Positions 8,938 to 60,472 of a stretch of DNA of 64,000 nucleotides are shown in pieces. The notes beneath the pieces were generated by a model. That model ran no database searches and was not told the DNA's origin. It saw only the letters and a list, made by a program, of their open reading frames with translations. The translations under genes and the position numbers were made by a program. The stretch's first letter is position 1. Each line of letters begins with the position of its first letter. Source of the DNA: Marinifilaceae bacterium (GTDB taxonomy: Bacteria; Bacteroidota; Bacteroidia; Bacteroidales; Marinifilaceae); contig JAGBFU010000018.1 of NCBI GenBank assembly GCA_017936285.1, positions 1 through 64,000 of the forward strand, in the 5' to 3' direction.

Positions 8938-10803
8938 TTATCGAAGCTCATCCTCTTCTATATACAGATTGTTTATAATAAAATCCTGACGCTCAGGGGT
9001 ATTTTTACCCATATAATACTCCAATATATCGTCATACGCCTCTCCCTTGCTCAGACGTACAGGTTCTAAACGAATATCCTTACCTATAAAACCGCGGAAC
9101 TCATCAGGATTAATCTCACCCAATCCCTTAAATCGTGTTATTTCCGGGCGAGGTCCCAAAGCTTTAATCGCCTCTTCACGTTCATTGTCAGAATAACAAT
9201 ACCTTGTAACTTTCTTATTCCTGACTCGGAAGAGCGGCGTTTGCAATATATATACATGTCCGGTTCTTATCAGATCAGGGAAAAATTGCAAAAAGAAGGT
9301 AAGAAGTAATAATCTGATATGCATTCCGTCAACATCGGCATCCGTAGCAATAATAACCTTATTGTAACGTAATCCCTCAAGTCCGTCCTCAATATTCAAT
9401 GCAGCCTGAAGCATATTAAACTCCTCATTCTCATAGACAACCTTCTTGGTTTGCCCATAGGAGTTATAAGGCTTACCACGCAAACTGAATACTGCCTGGG
9501 TATTTACATCACGCGACTTGGTTATAGAGCCACTTGCAGAGTTACCCTCTGTAATAAAAATCGAAGACTCATTCGCCAACTCATTCTTAGTATTATAATG
9601 GACCCTGCAGTCACGCAACTTCTTATTTACAAAACTAACCTGTTTTGCCCTTTCACGAGCCAGTTTCTGCACTCCACTCATCGCTTTGCGCTCACGCTCG
9701 GTATCCTGAATCTTTTTCAGCAAGACCTCTGCAACCTCGGGATTTCTATGAAGATAATTATCCAACTCTCTGGCCACAAAATCCATAATAAAATTGCGCA
9801 CAGTTGGAGTGGTTGTTGTCTCCTGCTCCTCAGGCTTTACCGGAGCCATATACTTAGATCCCAATTTTGTCTTAGTCTGTGACTCAAACACCGGCTCCTG
9901 CACTCGAATACTTATTGCACCTATCACCGAAGTTCTGATATCCGACATATCAAAATCCTTCTTATAGAACTCCTTGATAGTCTTAGCTATTGCCTCACGA
10001 AATGCTGTTTGATGAGTTCCACCAAGTGTTGTATGCTGACCATTCACAAAAGAGTAATAGGTCTCGCCATAATGTTTTCCATGAGTCAACGCCAACTCTA
10101 TATCATGCCCCTTTAAATAGATAATCGGATACAATCCCTCTTCATCCATCGTCTCTGAAAGCAAATCGTACAATCCATGGCGCGAGACAAACTTTTGACC
10201 ATTGAAATTCATTGTCAAGCCCGAATTCAGATAAGCATAGTTGCGCATCATTGTTTCAAGATACTCGACCATAAAACGATACTTCAAAAAAATCTCCTTA
10301 TCTGCAACAAATGTTACACGAGTCCCGTTAGGCTCAGTTGTTTGCTCTATCTCACGCTCCTCAACCAAAACTCCACGACAAAAACGGGCATACTTCGTCT
10401 CTCCGTCACGGAACGATTGTATTTCAAAACTCTCACTGAGCGCATTTACAGCCTTGATACCTACTCCATTCAAACCAACCGATTTCTGGAATACCGATGA
10501 GTCATACTTTCCTCCCGTATTCATTTTAGATGAGACATCCACCACCTTACCCAAAGGAATTCCACGACCAAAATCACGCACTGTAACCATACGCTCTTCA
10601 ACAGAGACACGAATCTCTTTACCGGCTCCCATTGCATACTCATCTATTGAATTATCGACAACCTCCTTCACCAAAATATAGATTCCGTCGTCAGGGGCTG
10701 AGCCATCGCCCAATTTACCTATATACATTCCGGGGCGGATACGTATATGTTCCGCCCACTCCAAAGTTCGTATTGAATCCTCTGTATAGTTATTTTGCTC
10801 CAT
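8938..10803 (-). CDS. parE: DNA topoisomerase IV subunit B
   Basis: The ATPase subunit of topoisomerase IV. An in-frame TTG at 10857 gives 639 residues, but the ATG at 10803 gives 621 residues and starts a normal ParE N-terminus, so I use it. Visible are the GHKL ATPase motifs ([19 protein letters not shown]), the transducer region, and the TOPRIM domain with the DADVDG metal motif. The usual EGDSA signature reads EGNSA; its catalytic Glu is intact. The C-terminus ([15 protein letters not shown]) is complete. The pseudogene upstream ends 54 bases before the ATG, so parE may be transcribed through it. Confidence 0.94.
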
Positions 10804-38728: not shown

Positions 38729-40009
38729 ATGGAGGCCCAAAGTATCACGATTATTACAGAGATAGCCTTTACGATTATTATGGTTATTCTGCTACTCTGC
38801 TCGGCAATGTTCTCGGGCTCAGAGGTAGCATTCTTTGCACTCACACCAAAACAGATTGAGAAATTACGTGAGGAGGGCGAGGAGTACTGTATCAAATTAA
38901 TTAACCAGCCTGAGAGGTTGCTGGCAACCATCCTTATATCTAACAATTTTGCCAATGTTGGAATTGTAACCCTATCAACATATCTGGTTAACAAACTGAT
39001 TACATCGGACAATCAAATTGTAGTCTTTTTGATTCAGGTTGTACTTGTCACATTCCTTATATTGCTCTTTGGCGAGATACTACCTAAACTTTTCGCCAAT
39101 AAGGCAAGGGTAAAGATGGCAAAATTAGCAGCGCGCCCGATATATGCACTGATGGTTCTCTTCAGCCCGATAGCATCAATCCTTATAAAGTCGACATCGC
39201 TGATAAGCAATCGTCTGAAAAGCAAACAGGTTTTATCAATGGACGAATTTTCAAAGGCGATTGAGCTTACAGAAAAGCAGGAGATAGACCAGGAGAAAGA
39301 GTTACTTGAAGGTATAGTCAGATATGCTTCAAAAAACACCTCCGACATCTTTACGCCACGAATAGATATTGTTGCATTAGAAAAAGATAGTGACTTTAAT
39401 CAGGTCAAGGCACGGATTATTGAGAGTGGATATTCAAGAATGCCGGTCTATGAAGAGAACCTTGACTCTATATGCGGGATTCTGTACGTAAAGGATTTGT
39501 TACCTCACCTGAAAAAAAGTGATTACAATTGGGCTCAGAATGTTAGACCAGCCTACTTTGTACCCGAGAATAAAAAAATCAACACCCTTCTTGAGGAGTT
39601 CCAGAAGAAAAAGGTACATATGGCAATAGTTGTAGATGAGTATGGCGGGACGTCCGGAATTGTAACAATGGAGGATATACTTGAAGAGATACTTGGCGAG
39701 ATAAACGACGAGTATGACGAGACCGACAGCGACTACACCCGGACAAAAAATAATGGCTACATATTCCGTGCAGCCACACTTCTGAACGATTTCGAGAAGA
39801 TTGTCGGCATTGAACACGATGAATTGGAAGAGATATGTGGCGAGGCAGAAACGTTGGCCGGACTGATTCTTGAGATAAAAGGCGAGATGCCAAAGCAGGG
39901 TGAATCTGTCATTTATGGAAAACACAAATTCACCGTTACCGAGGCAAACAATCGCCGTATTGCAAAGATCAAGTACGAATCTCTTACTCCATCAACGAAA
40001 CTCCATTGA
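38729..40009 (+). CDS. gldE: GldE-like CNNM/CBS domain membrane protein
   Basis: A 426-residue protein with a CNNM/DUF21 membrane domain (about 1-185, four hydrophobic segments, FSGSEVAFFAL), two CBS domains (DIFTPRIDIV and MAIVVDEYGGTSGIVTMED) and a C-terminal CorC/HlyC domain. Relatives transport or sense divalent cations. In Bacteroidota the homologue beside ssb is named GldE, a gliding-motility-associated protein, although many carriers do not glide. Its last 26 bases overlap the convergent phosphatase-like gene. Confidence 0.85.
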   Translation: MEAQSITIITEIAFTIIMVILLLCSAMFSGSEVAFFALTPKQIEKLREEGEEYCIKLINQPERLLATILISNNFANVGIVTLSTYLVNKLITSDNQIVVFLIQVVLVTFLILLFGEILPKLFANKARVKMAKLAARPIYALMVLFSPIASILIKSTSLISNRLKSKQVLSMDEFSKAIELTEKQEIDQEKELLEGIVRYASKNTSDIFTPRIDIVALEKDSDFNQVKARIIESGYSRMPVYEENLDSICGILYVKDLLPHLKKSDYNWAQNVRPAYFVPENKKINTLLEEFQKKKVHMAIVVDEYGGTSGIVTMEDILEEILGEINDEYDETDSDYTRTKNNGYIFRAATLLNDFEKIVGIEHDELEEICGEAETLAGLILEIKGEMPKQGESVIYGKHKFTVTEANNRRIAKIKYESLTPSTKLH

Positions 40010-41483
40010 TATTGTAAGGCAGAGATAAATTTACAATTCTACAAATAGTAGGGAAGATGTCTATCATACTACAGGCACTCTTCCCTATTTTTTCGCTACC
40101 CACCCCATACACATAGAGTGGGACGAAACGACACTTGCTGTATCTGCAGTAGTTGTCCTCACGCTCCTGCATACCCGGGATCCACGACTGCTCCAGAGCA
40201 AACATTATATCGCCACTACGTTTCGGATAGAAACTTCGGCTTATCAACAACTCGGTACCCTGACTAATTGATGCAGATGCCAGCTCGGTTGATGTTATCA
40301 CCTTTGCCACACCTTCGAAATTGACCAGAAAGTCGGCAACTGTACGCTGAAAATCTCCCAATACCAACCTATTCTTTTGGATAAGCTCCCTATTCAGATA
40401 GATCTGTCCGGAATCAAAACTCAATACCCACTCACCATCTCCATAGAGCAGTTTCAGATACGATTTTAAAAGAGCTACAGCTCGATATATACTGAAATAA
40501 TCTCCCTTTAATCTGTATTGTGCCAAATCTATTGGCAACATCTCACGCCCCTCAGATATGGTCATAAAGAGAGTGTACCCCTCCTCGCCACAACGGCTAT
40601 CCAGCTCTTTTAAAAGGCTCTCTATAGATTTATCCATTCTCAGAACCAAATCTTTAAACTCCGGAGAGTTTATGGCAAAGTCACGGTTCATATAATCAAG
40701 CGACGAGAGGGTTATCATCAACAGATCTGGCTCACGATCCTCGCCCAGACGCTCCTTTCGCATAACCTGAATTGCACTGTTAATAACGATATCATTTGCG
40801 TGAGGAATTGCATTTACTATCTGATACCCACGATACTGATTTCTGAGATTCGACAAGTTGTAGTAGAATTCCCGTTTTCCCCACGAAGGCAACCAACCGA
40901 TATTGACAATCGAGTCAACATTTAATTTTACATTCCAACTATCCAGCCACTGCGGCACCCCGGCATTATACTTCGACGACACAATCTTGCCACTCTTCTC
41001 ATCAAACCAGAAGCAGTTGTTTGCATAGGTTCCACCCGCCATAAGTGCATCTTCTGCTCTCATGGCTACCGAATATGCCCGCGAAAAGGAATTTGCCATT
41101 CTCATATATGCAGCGATATTCAATACTTTAAGCTGTTCCGGTGTTGAATCCTTTGAGATGTTAGGTAATCTGCCATTTTTGAGTCTGTCATACCACTCAT
41201 GTGAAACAATTCCATGCTCAGACGGATAGGTACCTGTATAGATTGTAGCCTGATCCGTACCACACTGCGAATACATATATCCATAATCGGCACGAAGCTC
41301 TTTTGCTCCTCTCATCAAGCGCTTAAAGCCACCATCTCCCAGCTCATAATCATACATTCTCACCCACTCGGGATAAAAATTGGCCAAAGTTATACCAACT
41401 ACCATTCTGGGCTTATCTCCTGCTTTCACATTGCCACACACAAAGACAAGTGAAACAAAAAGCACCAACACTACTCTTATCAT
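39984..41483 (-). CDS. Alkaline-phosphatase-fold protein without metal ligands
   Basis: A 499-residue exported protein (signal peptide ending near AGDKP) aligned to PafA-type alkaline phosphatases (TIYTGTYPSEHGIV, SLDYMNRDF, LRMDKSIESLLKELD). By alignment from memory to PafA, the nucleophile Thr is Cys74, the first metal Asp is Ala34, the His of DYVGH is Arg267, and the Asp-His of TADHG is Ser310-Glu311. Only Asp263 of these ligands remains. It therefore looks catalytically inactive as a phosphatase, perhaps kept for binding. It is the last gene after ligA and clpC and starts 1 base beyond the clpC region. Confidence 0.8.
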   Translation of the reverse strand: MIRVVLVLFVSLVFVCGNVKAGDKPRMVVGITLANFYPEWVRMYDYELGDGGFKRLMRGAKELRADYGYMYSQCGTDQATIYTGTYPSEHGIVSHEWYDRLKNGRLPNISKDSTPEQLKVLNIAAYMRMANSFSRAYSVAMRAEDALMAGGTYANNCFWFDEKSGKIVSSKYNAGVPQWLDSWNVKLNVDSIVNIGWLPSWGKREFYYNLSNLRNQYRGYQIVNAIPHANDIVINSAIQVMRKERLGEDREPDLLMITLSSLDYMNRDFAINSPEFKDLVLRMDKSIESLLKELDSRCGEEGYTLFMTISEGREMLPIDLAQYRLKGDYFSIYRAVALLKSYLKLLYGDGEWVLSFDSGQIYLNRELIQKNRLVLGDFQRTVADFLVNFEGVAKVITSTELASASISQGTELLISRSFYPKRSGDIMFALEQSWIPGMQEREDNYCRYSKCRFVPLYVYGVGSEKIGKSACSMIDIFPTICRIVNLSLPYNINGVSLME

Positions 41484-41484
41484 A

Positions 41485-41850
41485 TCAATTACTCTCCTCT
41501 ATATACTCTATTTTTAATCTGTCACCGGCAGAATCCACTCCTATCTTCAGAGACTTACCGGCAATGATGTTCCCACGCAATATTTGCTCCGATACCTCAT
41601 CCTCAAAATAGCGCTGAACGGCACGTTTCAACGGACGGGCTCCATACTCTGAGCTATACGATTTAGCAGCCAAGAATTTGTATGCCTCCTCAGAGATTTC
41701 TACACGACAACCATACTCCTCAATACGTAGGATAGCCTTCTGCATCTCAAGTCTTAAAATGGTCATCAAATCCTCTCGATGCAGGGAGTTAAAGAATACA
41801 ACATCGTCTATTCTGTTTAAAAATTCAGGAGAAAAGGTACTCCTCAAAGC
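41485..41850 (-). pseudogene. clpC: C-terminal remainder of ClpC after an in-frame TAG
   Basis: After the TAG at 41853-41851 the same frame continues without a shift as ALRSTFSPEFLNRIDD and ends at 41485, about 121 residues. This is the small subdomain of the second AAA+ module, including the sensor-2 arginine in GARPLKRAVQ. The only near start is a TTG at 41847. Without readthrough or a separate start this part is not made. Confidence 0.75.
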
Positions 41851-44019
41851 CTACTTCACTATCGATTCACTCCGTTTCTCATCAATAGCAGCACTATCTG
41901 CAGTAGTAAAACCTACTGCCCTTCCATACTCTTTTACCTGGCGCGAACCGATATTCGATGTCATTATTATTATTGTGTTTCTGAAATCTACAATACGACC
42001 AAAACTATCAGTCAATCGTCCGTCATCAAGAAGTTGCAACAGAATATTGAATACATCTGCGTGAGCTTTCTCAATCTCATCAAGTAACACCACACTGTAT
42101 GGTTTACGAAGCACCCTCTCCGTTAATTGGCCACCCTCATCATAGCCGACATATCCCGGAGGTGCACCCACCAGACGGCTCACAGCAAACTTCTCCATAT
42201 ACTCGCTCATATCGATTCTTATTAATGCATCCTGAGAATCAAAGAGCTGAATAGCAAGTTCTTTGGCCAATTGAGTTTTACCAACTCCTGTAGGGCCAAG
42301 AAAGATAAACGAGCCGATTGGTCTGTTTGGATCCTTCATGCCGGTTCTATTGCGCATAATGGCACGAACTACACTATCAATCGCCTGTTTCTGACCAATT
42401 ATCACTCTCTCCAACTCTGAGCGCATATTCAAAATCTTGGTTCCTTCGCTACTTGCAATTCTGGAGATTGGGATACCGGTCATCAAAGCAACAACCTCGT
42501 CAACTGCCGCTTCATCAACAACCACCTTATTATCCTCCAATCTGTGTTGCCAGGCCTCGCGAGCCGCCTCAATACCTTTTAAAAGTTCGCGTTCCTCATC
42601 TCTGAGCGAGGCTGCATACTCAAATCTCTGCTCTCTGACTGCCACCCTCTTCTTCTCAGTAACATCGTGAAGTCGGAGTTCCATTGACTCTATCTCAAAA
42701 GGGAGGGTTACATTATCCAAATGCGCCCGTGCCCCTGCTTCATCCATAGCATCAATTGCCTTATCCGGTAGAGACCTGTCTGTAATATAGCGGGTTGTCA
42801 ACTTAACACACGCCTCAAGTGCAGCATCTGTATATATTACATGATGATGCTCCTCATACTTCGATTTGATATTTCTTAAAATATTCAGAGTCTCGTCATA
42901 ATTAGGAGCTTCAACTATTATCTTCTGGAAACGACGCTCTAAAGCACCATCCTTCTCGATTGTCTTACGGTACTCATCTATTGTTGTCGCTCCGATACAC
43001 TGAATGGTACCACGAGCCAAAGCAGGCTTCAAAATATTAGCCGCATCAAGACTTCCCTGCGACCCTCCTGCCCCAATAATGGTATGAATCTCATCAATAA
43101 AAAGAATCACATCCTTTCTCGATGACAACTCCTTTATCAACTCCTTCATTCGCTCCTCAAACTGCCCCCTATATTTAGTTCCGGCGACGAGCGATGCCAT
43201 ATCGAGCGATATAATACGCTTCTCATGCAAAACACACGATACCTGTTTATTGACAATTTTCAGAGCCAACCCCTCGGCAATAGCAGACTTGCCTACACCC
43301 GGCTCACCAATCAGAATGGGATTATTCTTTTTTCTTCGACTCAAAATCTGAACCAAACGCTCAATCTCGCTTTCACGACCGACTATCGGATCCAATTTCC
43401 CCTCAAGAGCAGCCTTGGTAATATCCACTCCATAATTCTCCAAAAGTGATCCGCTTACACTTCGTTCCTCGTCTGTTGCCCCCTCACTCTCGCCCATATC
43501 CTTATCAAAATGATCAAAATCATCAGAGGCCTGTGGCGAAAACAACTCCCTTGCATCTGATTCCAGTTCATTAAGCAAAGACTCCTTAAAAGCATTATAA
43601 GTTACACCCATTGAAGCAAGTTGCTCACATATATGCAAGGCATCATAATACAAAAGTGCCAACATAATATGAGTCTCATCAACCTCATCCTGTCCCAACT
43701 TCCAGGCCTCTTCATGAACCTTCCTCAACACCGATGCAGTAGCAATAGTAGGAGGCAAATCATTCAGAGATGGAGTTGTACGCACTCCTATAAAGTTCTC
43801 ATCCTTAATATTCTCAGCTATATAATTACGTACAATACTCGACAAATCGGATAGTTTGACGCCCATTGAGGACATCTGTTTTGCAACAACCGACTCCTCA
43901 AGCTCAATCATACCCAACAGCAAATGCTCCGGATACAACTTTGAACATCCCGTCTCCATTGCTATCTTGCCGGCTCTGGCAATTATCTCACGTATTCTGT
44001 TTCTCTTCTCCTGCGACAT
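41851..44019 (-). CDS. clpC: ClpC-type AAA+ ATPase, cut short by an in-frame TAG
   Basis: An unfoldase of the Clp/Hsp100 group. The 722 residues contain the two N-terminal repeats (1-145), the first AAA+ module with GEPGVGKSA and FIDEIHT, a middle coiled segment (about 420-460), and the second module with GPTGVGKTQ and LLDEIEKAH. Translation stops at TAG (41853-41851) after SIVK, though homology runs on in the same frame for about 120 residues. A single CAG-to-TAG change explains it. Other genes here end in TAG, so the codon is a normal stop. The gene lies between ligA and the phosphatase-like gene. Confidence 0.82.
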
Positions 44020-44028
44020 CTTAAATCA

Positions 44029-46155
<2,127 letters not shown>

Positions 46156-60221: not shown

Positions 60222-60227
60222 TTCCTG

Positions 60228-60299
<72 letters not shown>

Positions 60300-60306
60300 A
60301 TTTCTG

Positions 60307-60379
60307 AGCCTCTTGTCGGGTTCGAACCAACGACCTCGAGATTACAAATCACGCGCTCTACCAACTGAGCTAAAGAGGC
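60307..60379 (-). tRNA. tRNA-Thr(UGU), copy 1
   Basis: Minus-strand cloverleaf: acceptor GCCTCTT/AAGAGGC, anticodon loop TTTGTAA (anticodon TGT, Thr), T loop TTCGAAC. The anticodon stem CGTGA/TCTCG has a central T-T mismatch. Discriminator T, no encoded CCA. Identical to the copy at 60400-60472. Confidence 0.94.
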
Positions 60380-60399
60380 AAGAATATATATAAAAACGG

Positions 60400-60472
60400 A
60401 GCCTCTTGTCGGGTTCGAACCAACGACCTCGAGATTACAAATCACGCGCTCTACCAACTGAGCTAAAGAGGC
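60400..60472 (-). tRNA. tRNA-Thr(UGU), copy 2
   Basis: An exact duplicate of the neighbouring tRNA-Thr(UGU), including the T-T mismatch in the anticodon stem. It is the tRNA closest to the SRP RNA gene; 20 bases separate the two copies. Confidence 0.94.

Follow-up and report, generated by a model that had tools for sequence, protein, structure and literature searches.

Does a secreted protein that has an alkaline phosphatase (AP) fold still work as an enzyme when nearly all of its catalytic residues are replaced, and, if not, what keeps its gene? The question is raised by a gene on contig JAGBFU010000018.1 of a Marinifilaceae bacterium (assembly GCA_017936285.1), in the stretch of 64,000 nucleotides analysed here (positions 1 to 64,000, below called the window). 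The answer reached is that gut and marine Bacteroidales keep a lineage of pseudo-APs, derived from the phosphatase PafA, under strong selection, apparently for a new, non-catalytic job. The gene and its probable signal peptide are:

39984..41483, minus strand: pseudo-AP gene of the PafA-derived Bacteroidales lineage, 499 amino acids (open reading frame, profile matches, tree, hhalign)
41421..41483, minus strand: probable type I signal peptide, residues 1-21, with VKA-GD cleavage (read from sequence; low-confidence end of the predicted model)

The open reading frame (ORF) has an ATG start, 499 codons for amino acids and no internal stops. The N-terminus, MIRVVLVLFVSLVFVCGNVKA-GD, shows the n-, h- and c-regions of a type I signal peptide when read by eye. 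An earlier note on this DNA had described an intact frame of 499 residues with a signal peptide; the frame is borne out and the signal peptide is probable.

The protein has the fold of the AP superfamily, as judged by its match to Pfam PF01663 (82.6 bits against a cut-off of 23, E 5e-23). It matches the PafA structure 5tj3 over residues 20-493 (E 1.7e-38), and the hhalign profile-profile alignment to PafA has a probability of 100 and an E of 1e-138. APs of the PhoK/SPAP type (3q3q, 5xwi), which are active enzymes and more distant superfamily relatives, match more weakly (E 8e-17). The AlphaFold model has a pLDDT of 88.6 and a pTM of 0.88. The gene is a descendant of a PafA-type AP. With PafA of Elizabethkingia meningoseptica (the phosphate-irrepressible AP, 5tj3, NF042991) it shares fold, domain order, secretion and alignment over the full length, and the structural motifs TGxxPxxHGI and RxDxxI are kept. 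It differs from PafA in its catalytic and metal residues, in having another insertion-domain motif, and in its score with the NCBIfam PafA equivalog NF042991, where 268.4 bits against a curated cut-off of 650 place it outside the enzyme family.

Ten PafA residues were mapped onto the protein with MAFFT and, separately, with hhalign: D38, T79, N100, K162, R164, D305, H309, D352, H353 and H486. These are the catalytic and metal set of the PafA literature; the numbering was checked against the chain sequences of 5tj3 and 5too (T79S). Only D305 is retained. The sites, placed by alignment, are:

41382..41384, minus strand: A34, site of PafA metal ligand D38
41262..41264, minus strand: C74, site of PafA nucleophile T79
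41199..41201, minus strand: H95, site of PafA N100
41052..41060, minus strand: R142 and E144, sites of PafA K162 and R164
40683..40697, minus strand: D263 (D305 retained) and R267, site of metal ligand H309
40551..40556, minus strand: S310-E311, site of the metal pair D352-H353

The two mappings agree for nine residues. The exception is H486, which is absent: REDNYCRYSKCRF is free of His, and in this loosely aligned region the column holds N or Y, depending on the alignment. Misalignment of the active site is excluded by the separate profile-profile alignment. Neither metal site is left in the sequence, and the nucleophile and the phosphate-binding Lys/Arg are lost too; we infer a loss of enzymatic activity. 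It is a pseudoenzyme in the sense of an enzyme homologue with its essential residues replaced. All four replacements named in the earlier note were recovered: nucleophile Thr to Cys (T79 to C74), first metal Asp to Ala (D38 to A34), the His of DYxGH to Arg (H309 to R267), and the Asp-His of TADHG to Ser-Glu (D352-H353 to S310-E311). Beyond its list, N100, K162, R164 and H486 are lost. The Cys at position 79 is private to the window and not a feature of the lineage; 34 of 44 family sequences have Thr there and six have Ser.

In a whole-genome search, an orthologue was present in 58 of 59 genomes and in all 17 genera of the window's family, including Odoribacter, Butyricimonas, Culturomica, Marinifilum, Labilibaculum and Ancylomarina. 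All full-length family copies are open. Some family genomes also carry a separate, intact PafA-like gene (L046-L050). No relative was found in viral contigs. The replacements are close to uniform in the family: N or R at K162 (44/44 sequences), E or D at R164 (43/44), R at H309 (41/44) and E or Q at H353 (44/44). D38 and D352 persist in the branch of the Marinifilum type and are gone from that of the window. A check proposed with the earlier note, a look for the same replacements in other Bacteroidales, has a positive answer within the family; across the order the residues were lost by varied routes.

Matches to the family profile at E 1e-8 were found in 182 of 296 Bacteroidales genomes (about 61%, of which a few are possibly canonical PafA), and 15 of the 296 have a protein above the PafA cut-off. 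About 65 order-wide and 40 phylum-wide homologues were extracted, and a FastTree tree was built with the catalytic columns removed. It contains a PafA-derived Bacteroidales clade (support 0.947) with 105 sampled members, 98 degraded and seven intact; the sample was chosen by similarity to the window's family, and these counts are not population frequencies. Outside the clade, 50 of 50 sequences have the full catalytic set, including all from beyond Bacteroidales. The tree makes the gene in the window a member of an order-wide lineage and not one lone stripped gene. The 98 degraded members show 84 distinct combinations of the ten residues. Both K162 and R164 are lost in 91 of them, neither metal site is present even loosely in 66, and a loose second metal site is present in 30. 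D38, T/S79, D352 and H353 are retained together in four, and D305, H309 and H486 together in two. Six degraded members (L109, L110, L122, L123, L125 and L137) have one metal site nearly whole and are candidate single-metal intermediates.

The best quick tree needs three changes. Constraining all degraded members to one clade is not rejected (p-AU 0.399), so a single loss followed by divergent drift is compatible with the data, and an initial reading of many independent losses of catalysis was dropped.

The orthologues of the gene are under strong purifying selection. For degraded members, close pairs mostly have a ratio of nonsynonymous to synonymous substitution rates (dN/dS, NG86) of 0.02-0.09, and four more distant pairs one of 0.12-0.22, pairs with saturated dS being excluded. 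Intact pairs give 0.04-0.19, and selection on close degraded pairs is no weaker. These estimates are from relatives only, the nearest relative of the gene in the window (59% identical) being too distant for an estimate of its own. Together with the presence in 58 of 59 family genomes, they indicate a pseudoenzyme maintained by selection, and the earlier note's impression that the gene seems selected holds in the relatives.

Constraint has moved within the protein. Conservation in 52 non-redundant degraded members was set against that in 34 non-redundant sequences from outside the clade. Catalytic columns have 4.32 bits in the outside sequences and 0.65-2.6 bits in degraded members, a loss of about 2.8 bits. 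Residues 24-327 change by -0.37 bits and the C-terminal part by -0.55 bits, whereas residues 328-434 gain 0.61 bits. None of 485 circular shifts of this segment gives an equal contrast, a result to be read as an effect size and not as a formal test, as the segment was picked after the conserved columns had been seen. The segment is:

40182..40502, minus strand: insertion domain, residues 328-434 (PafA about 370-475), newly conserved: FxxxxxxxLLxxYLxxxYGxGxWxxxYxxxQxYLNxxLI ... W434

It sits between the second and third metal-ligand motifs. The seven intact members of the clade (L101-L105, L107 and L112) are Bacteroidales PafA-like enzymes that differ from the protein in the window by having all ten catalytic residues; in each, LLxxYLxxxYGxGxW ... 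QxYLNxxLI, the motif of the domain, is present whole or almost whole. Its conservation is therefore independent of the loss of catalysis. A partial version is found in some sequences outside the clade (L168).

On this evidence the protein is probably a periplasmic pseudoenzyme, a scaffold or binding protein, that works through its insertion domain. The ancestor would have been bifunctional, a phosphatase with a second role borne by the insertion domain. When the second role became dominant, the active site would have been free to be lost, and each family may have found its own filling for the old pocket. For the family of the window this was perhaps salt bridges, with R at 309, E or Q at 353 and E at 164. 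Today the protein would work in the cell envelope as a scaffold or binding partner, with lipoprotein or export biogenesis as a possible setting. Of the periplasmic binding or scaffolding pseudoenzyme proposed in the earlier note, the secreted, selected and catalytically stripped AP fold stands; binding or scaffolding is carried forward as a supposed role, for which the conservation gain in the insertion domain provides a physical location.

The gene context differs between branches. The window's branch has ligA-clpC-AP, with gldE convergent:

41485..44019, minus strand: clpC, upstream neighbour, carries an in-frame TAG at 41851-41853
44029..46152, minus strand: ligA, upstream of clpC
38729..40009, plus strand: gldE-like gene (CNNM/CBS/CorC_HlyC), convergent to the pseudo-AP gene

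The pseudo-AP gene follows clpC and ligA, as the earlier note had stated; it starts one base past the clpC stop, and all three are on the same strand. At their 3' ends, the pseudo-AP gene and the gldE-like gene share 26 bases (39984-40009). The ligA-clpC neighbourhood is peculiar to the window's lineage and offers no functional clue. Marinifilum and its relatives have ychF-AP, with sfp-gldD-gldE convergent. In ten other families, lnb is directly upstream of the degraded AP gene in 11 loci, and secA is downstream in nine of these. The loci are L141, L143, L144, L146, L151, L152 and L154-L158, and their frames sometimes overlap or nearly so. The gene lnb encodes the Bacteroidota lipoprotein N-acyltransferase (identity via Pfam names and PMC13103446). 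Searches by locus tag gave a single table entry, in which PGN_1457 of Porphyromonas gingivalis has the name 'probable alkaline phosphatase' and PGN_1458, next to it, is SecA (PMC3764172); judged from locus-tag adjacency alone, it fits the AP-secA order of related families.

The lnb-AP-secA order hints at a role in envelope biogenesis. With this order in ten families, a more specific proposal, possible though not the likelier outcome, is a Bacteroidales-wide envelope-biogenesis factor that arose from a bifunctional AP, had its insertion-domain role first, lost catalysis later, and now, speculatively, helps in the maturation of lipoproteins or in export.

Several points weigh against the proposed role of the insertion domain and its extension to the envelope. 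The residues that have become conserved are for the most part hydrophobic, and they may be no more than the domain's core. The family profile finds no match in about 38% of Bacteroidales genomes, so the role would be dispensable at the level of the order. The gene in the window is not beside lnb or secA, and the lnb of its genome is on another contig.

Among the other explanations, the one that survives best, though unlikely, is that the old pocket still functions without catalysis as a metal-free ligand-binding site, for example as a phospho-ligand or lipid sensor. The near-uniform replacements in the window's family at 162, 164, 309 and 353 suggest selection on the pocket in that family. Such uniformity could reflect shared descent or structural salt bridges, and in the lineage as a whole few columns are less conserved than those of the pocket, with 84 combinations in 98 sequences, whereas the insertion domain is conserved. 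Less likely still, the protein could be an enzyme whose site is different or reduced, single-metal or metal-free, and the label pseudoenzyme would be wrong. The AP superfamily does have single-metal members, the sulfatases, and the partial metal sites of some relatives (the sets of four and two members, and the loose second site of 30) are in line with this; however, the protein in the window has no second-site residue and one of three first-site ligands, and most degraded members have lost both K162 and R164 (91/98) and lack either site even loosely (66/98). A component of type IX secretion or gliding, to which the nearby gldE and gldD could point, is very improbable: the gene is near sfp-gldD-gldE in many families, but these gld neighbours are convergent and not co-transcribed, and the distribution contradicts co-occurrence with the SprA translocon, as 11 genomes, including the window's own, have the gene without SprA and about 107 have SprA without the gene. 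A decaying pafA remnant, open by chance, would account for the lost catalytic residues and their variable columns and is hardly credible, as the full-length family copies are all open, 58 of 59 genomes keep the gene, the insertion domain is better conserved than in the enzymes, and the relatives' dN/dS rejects a pseudogene.

Some further observations concern the window at large. The in-frame TAG at 41851-41853 (minus strand) splits clpC after residue 722, while a copy from the same genus (L072) is a single frame of 835 amino acids that reads through. A nonsense mutation or an error of assembly is the probable source of the TAG. Amber recoding is unsupported; TAG terminates five of 34 non-overlapping long ORFs in the window. 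A second Clp ATPase homologue is present at G000:C61:8233-10761. Three tandem tRNA-Thr genes (anticodon TGT twice, GGT once) lie at 60227-60472, minus strand, and at 8938-8940, minus strand, a TAA stands between two long open stretches in the same frame (639 and 875 codons).

Pseudoenzymes as a kind and PafA as a family are known. No account of a pseudo-AP lineage or of inactive PafA-like proteins was found in the open-access literature, subscription papers being beyond the search. One survey of PafA filtered out sequences mutated at key residues ahead of its analysis, without follow-up (PMC8812569).

If PafA-type phosphatases of gut and marine Bacteroidales were counted by homology, the count would include many proteins that, by their residues, cannot be phosphatases, and such annotations call for caution. 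One bacterial order holds a natural series from the intact enzyme through partly decayed forms to a pseudoenzyme that is fully stripped, and along it constraint shifts measurably from the active site to an accessory domain. With such a series, the sequence of steps by which a pseudoenzyme evolves can be put to the test.
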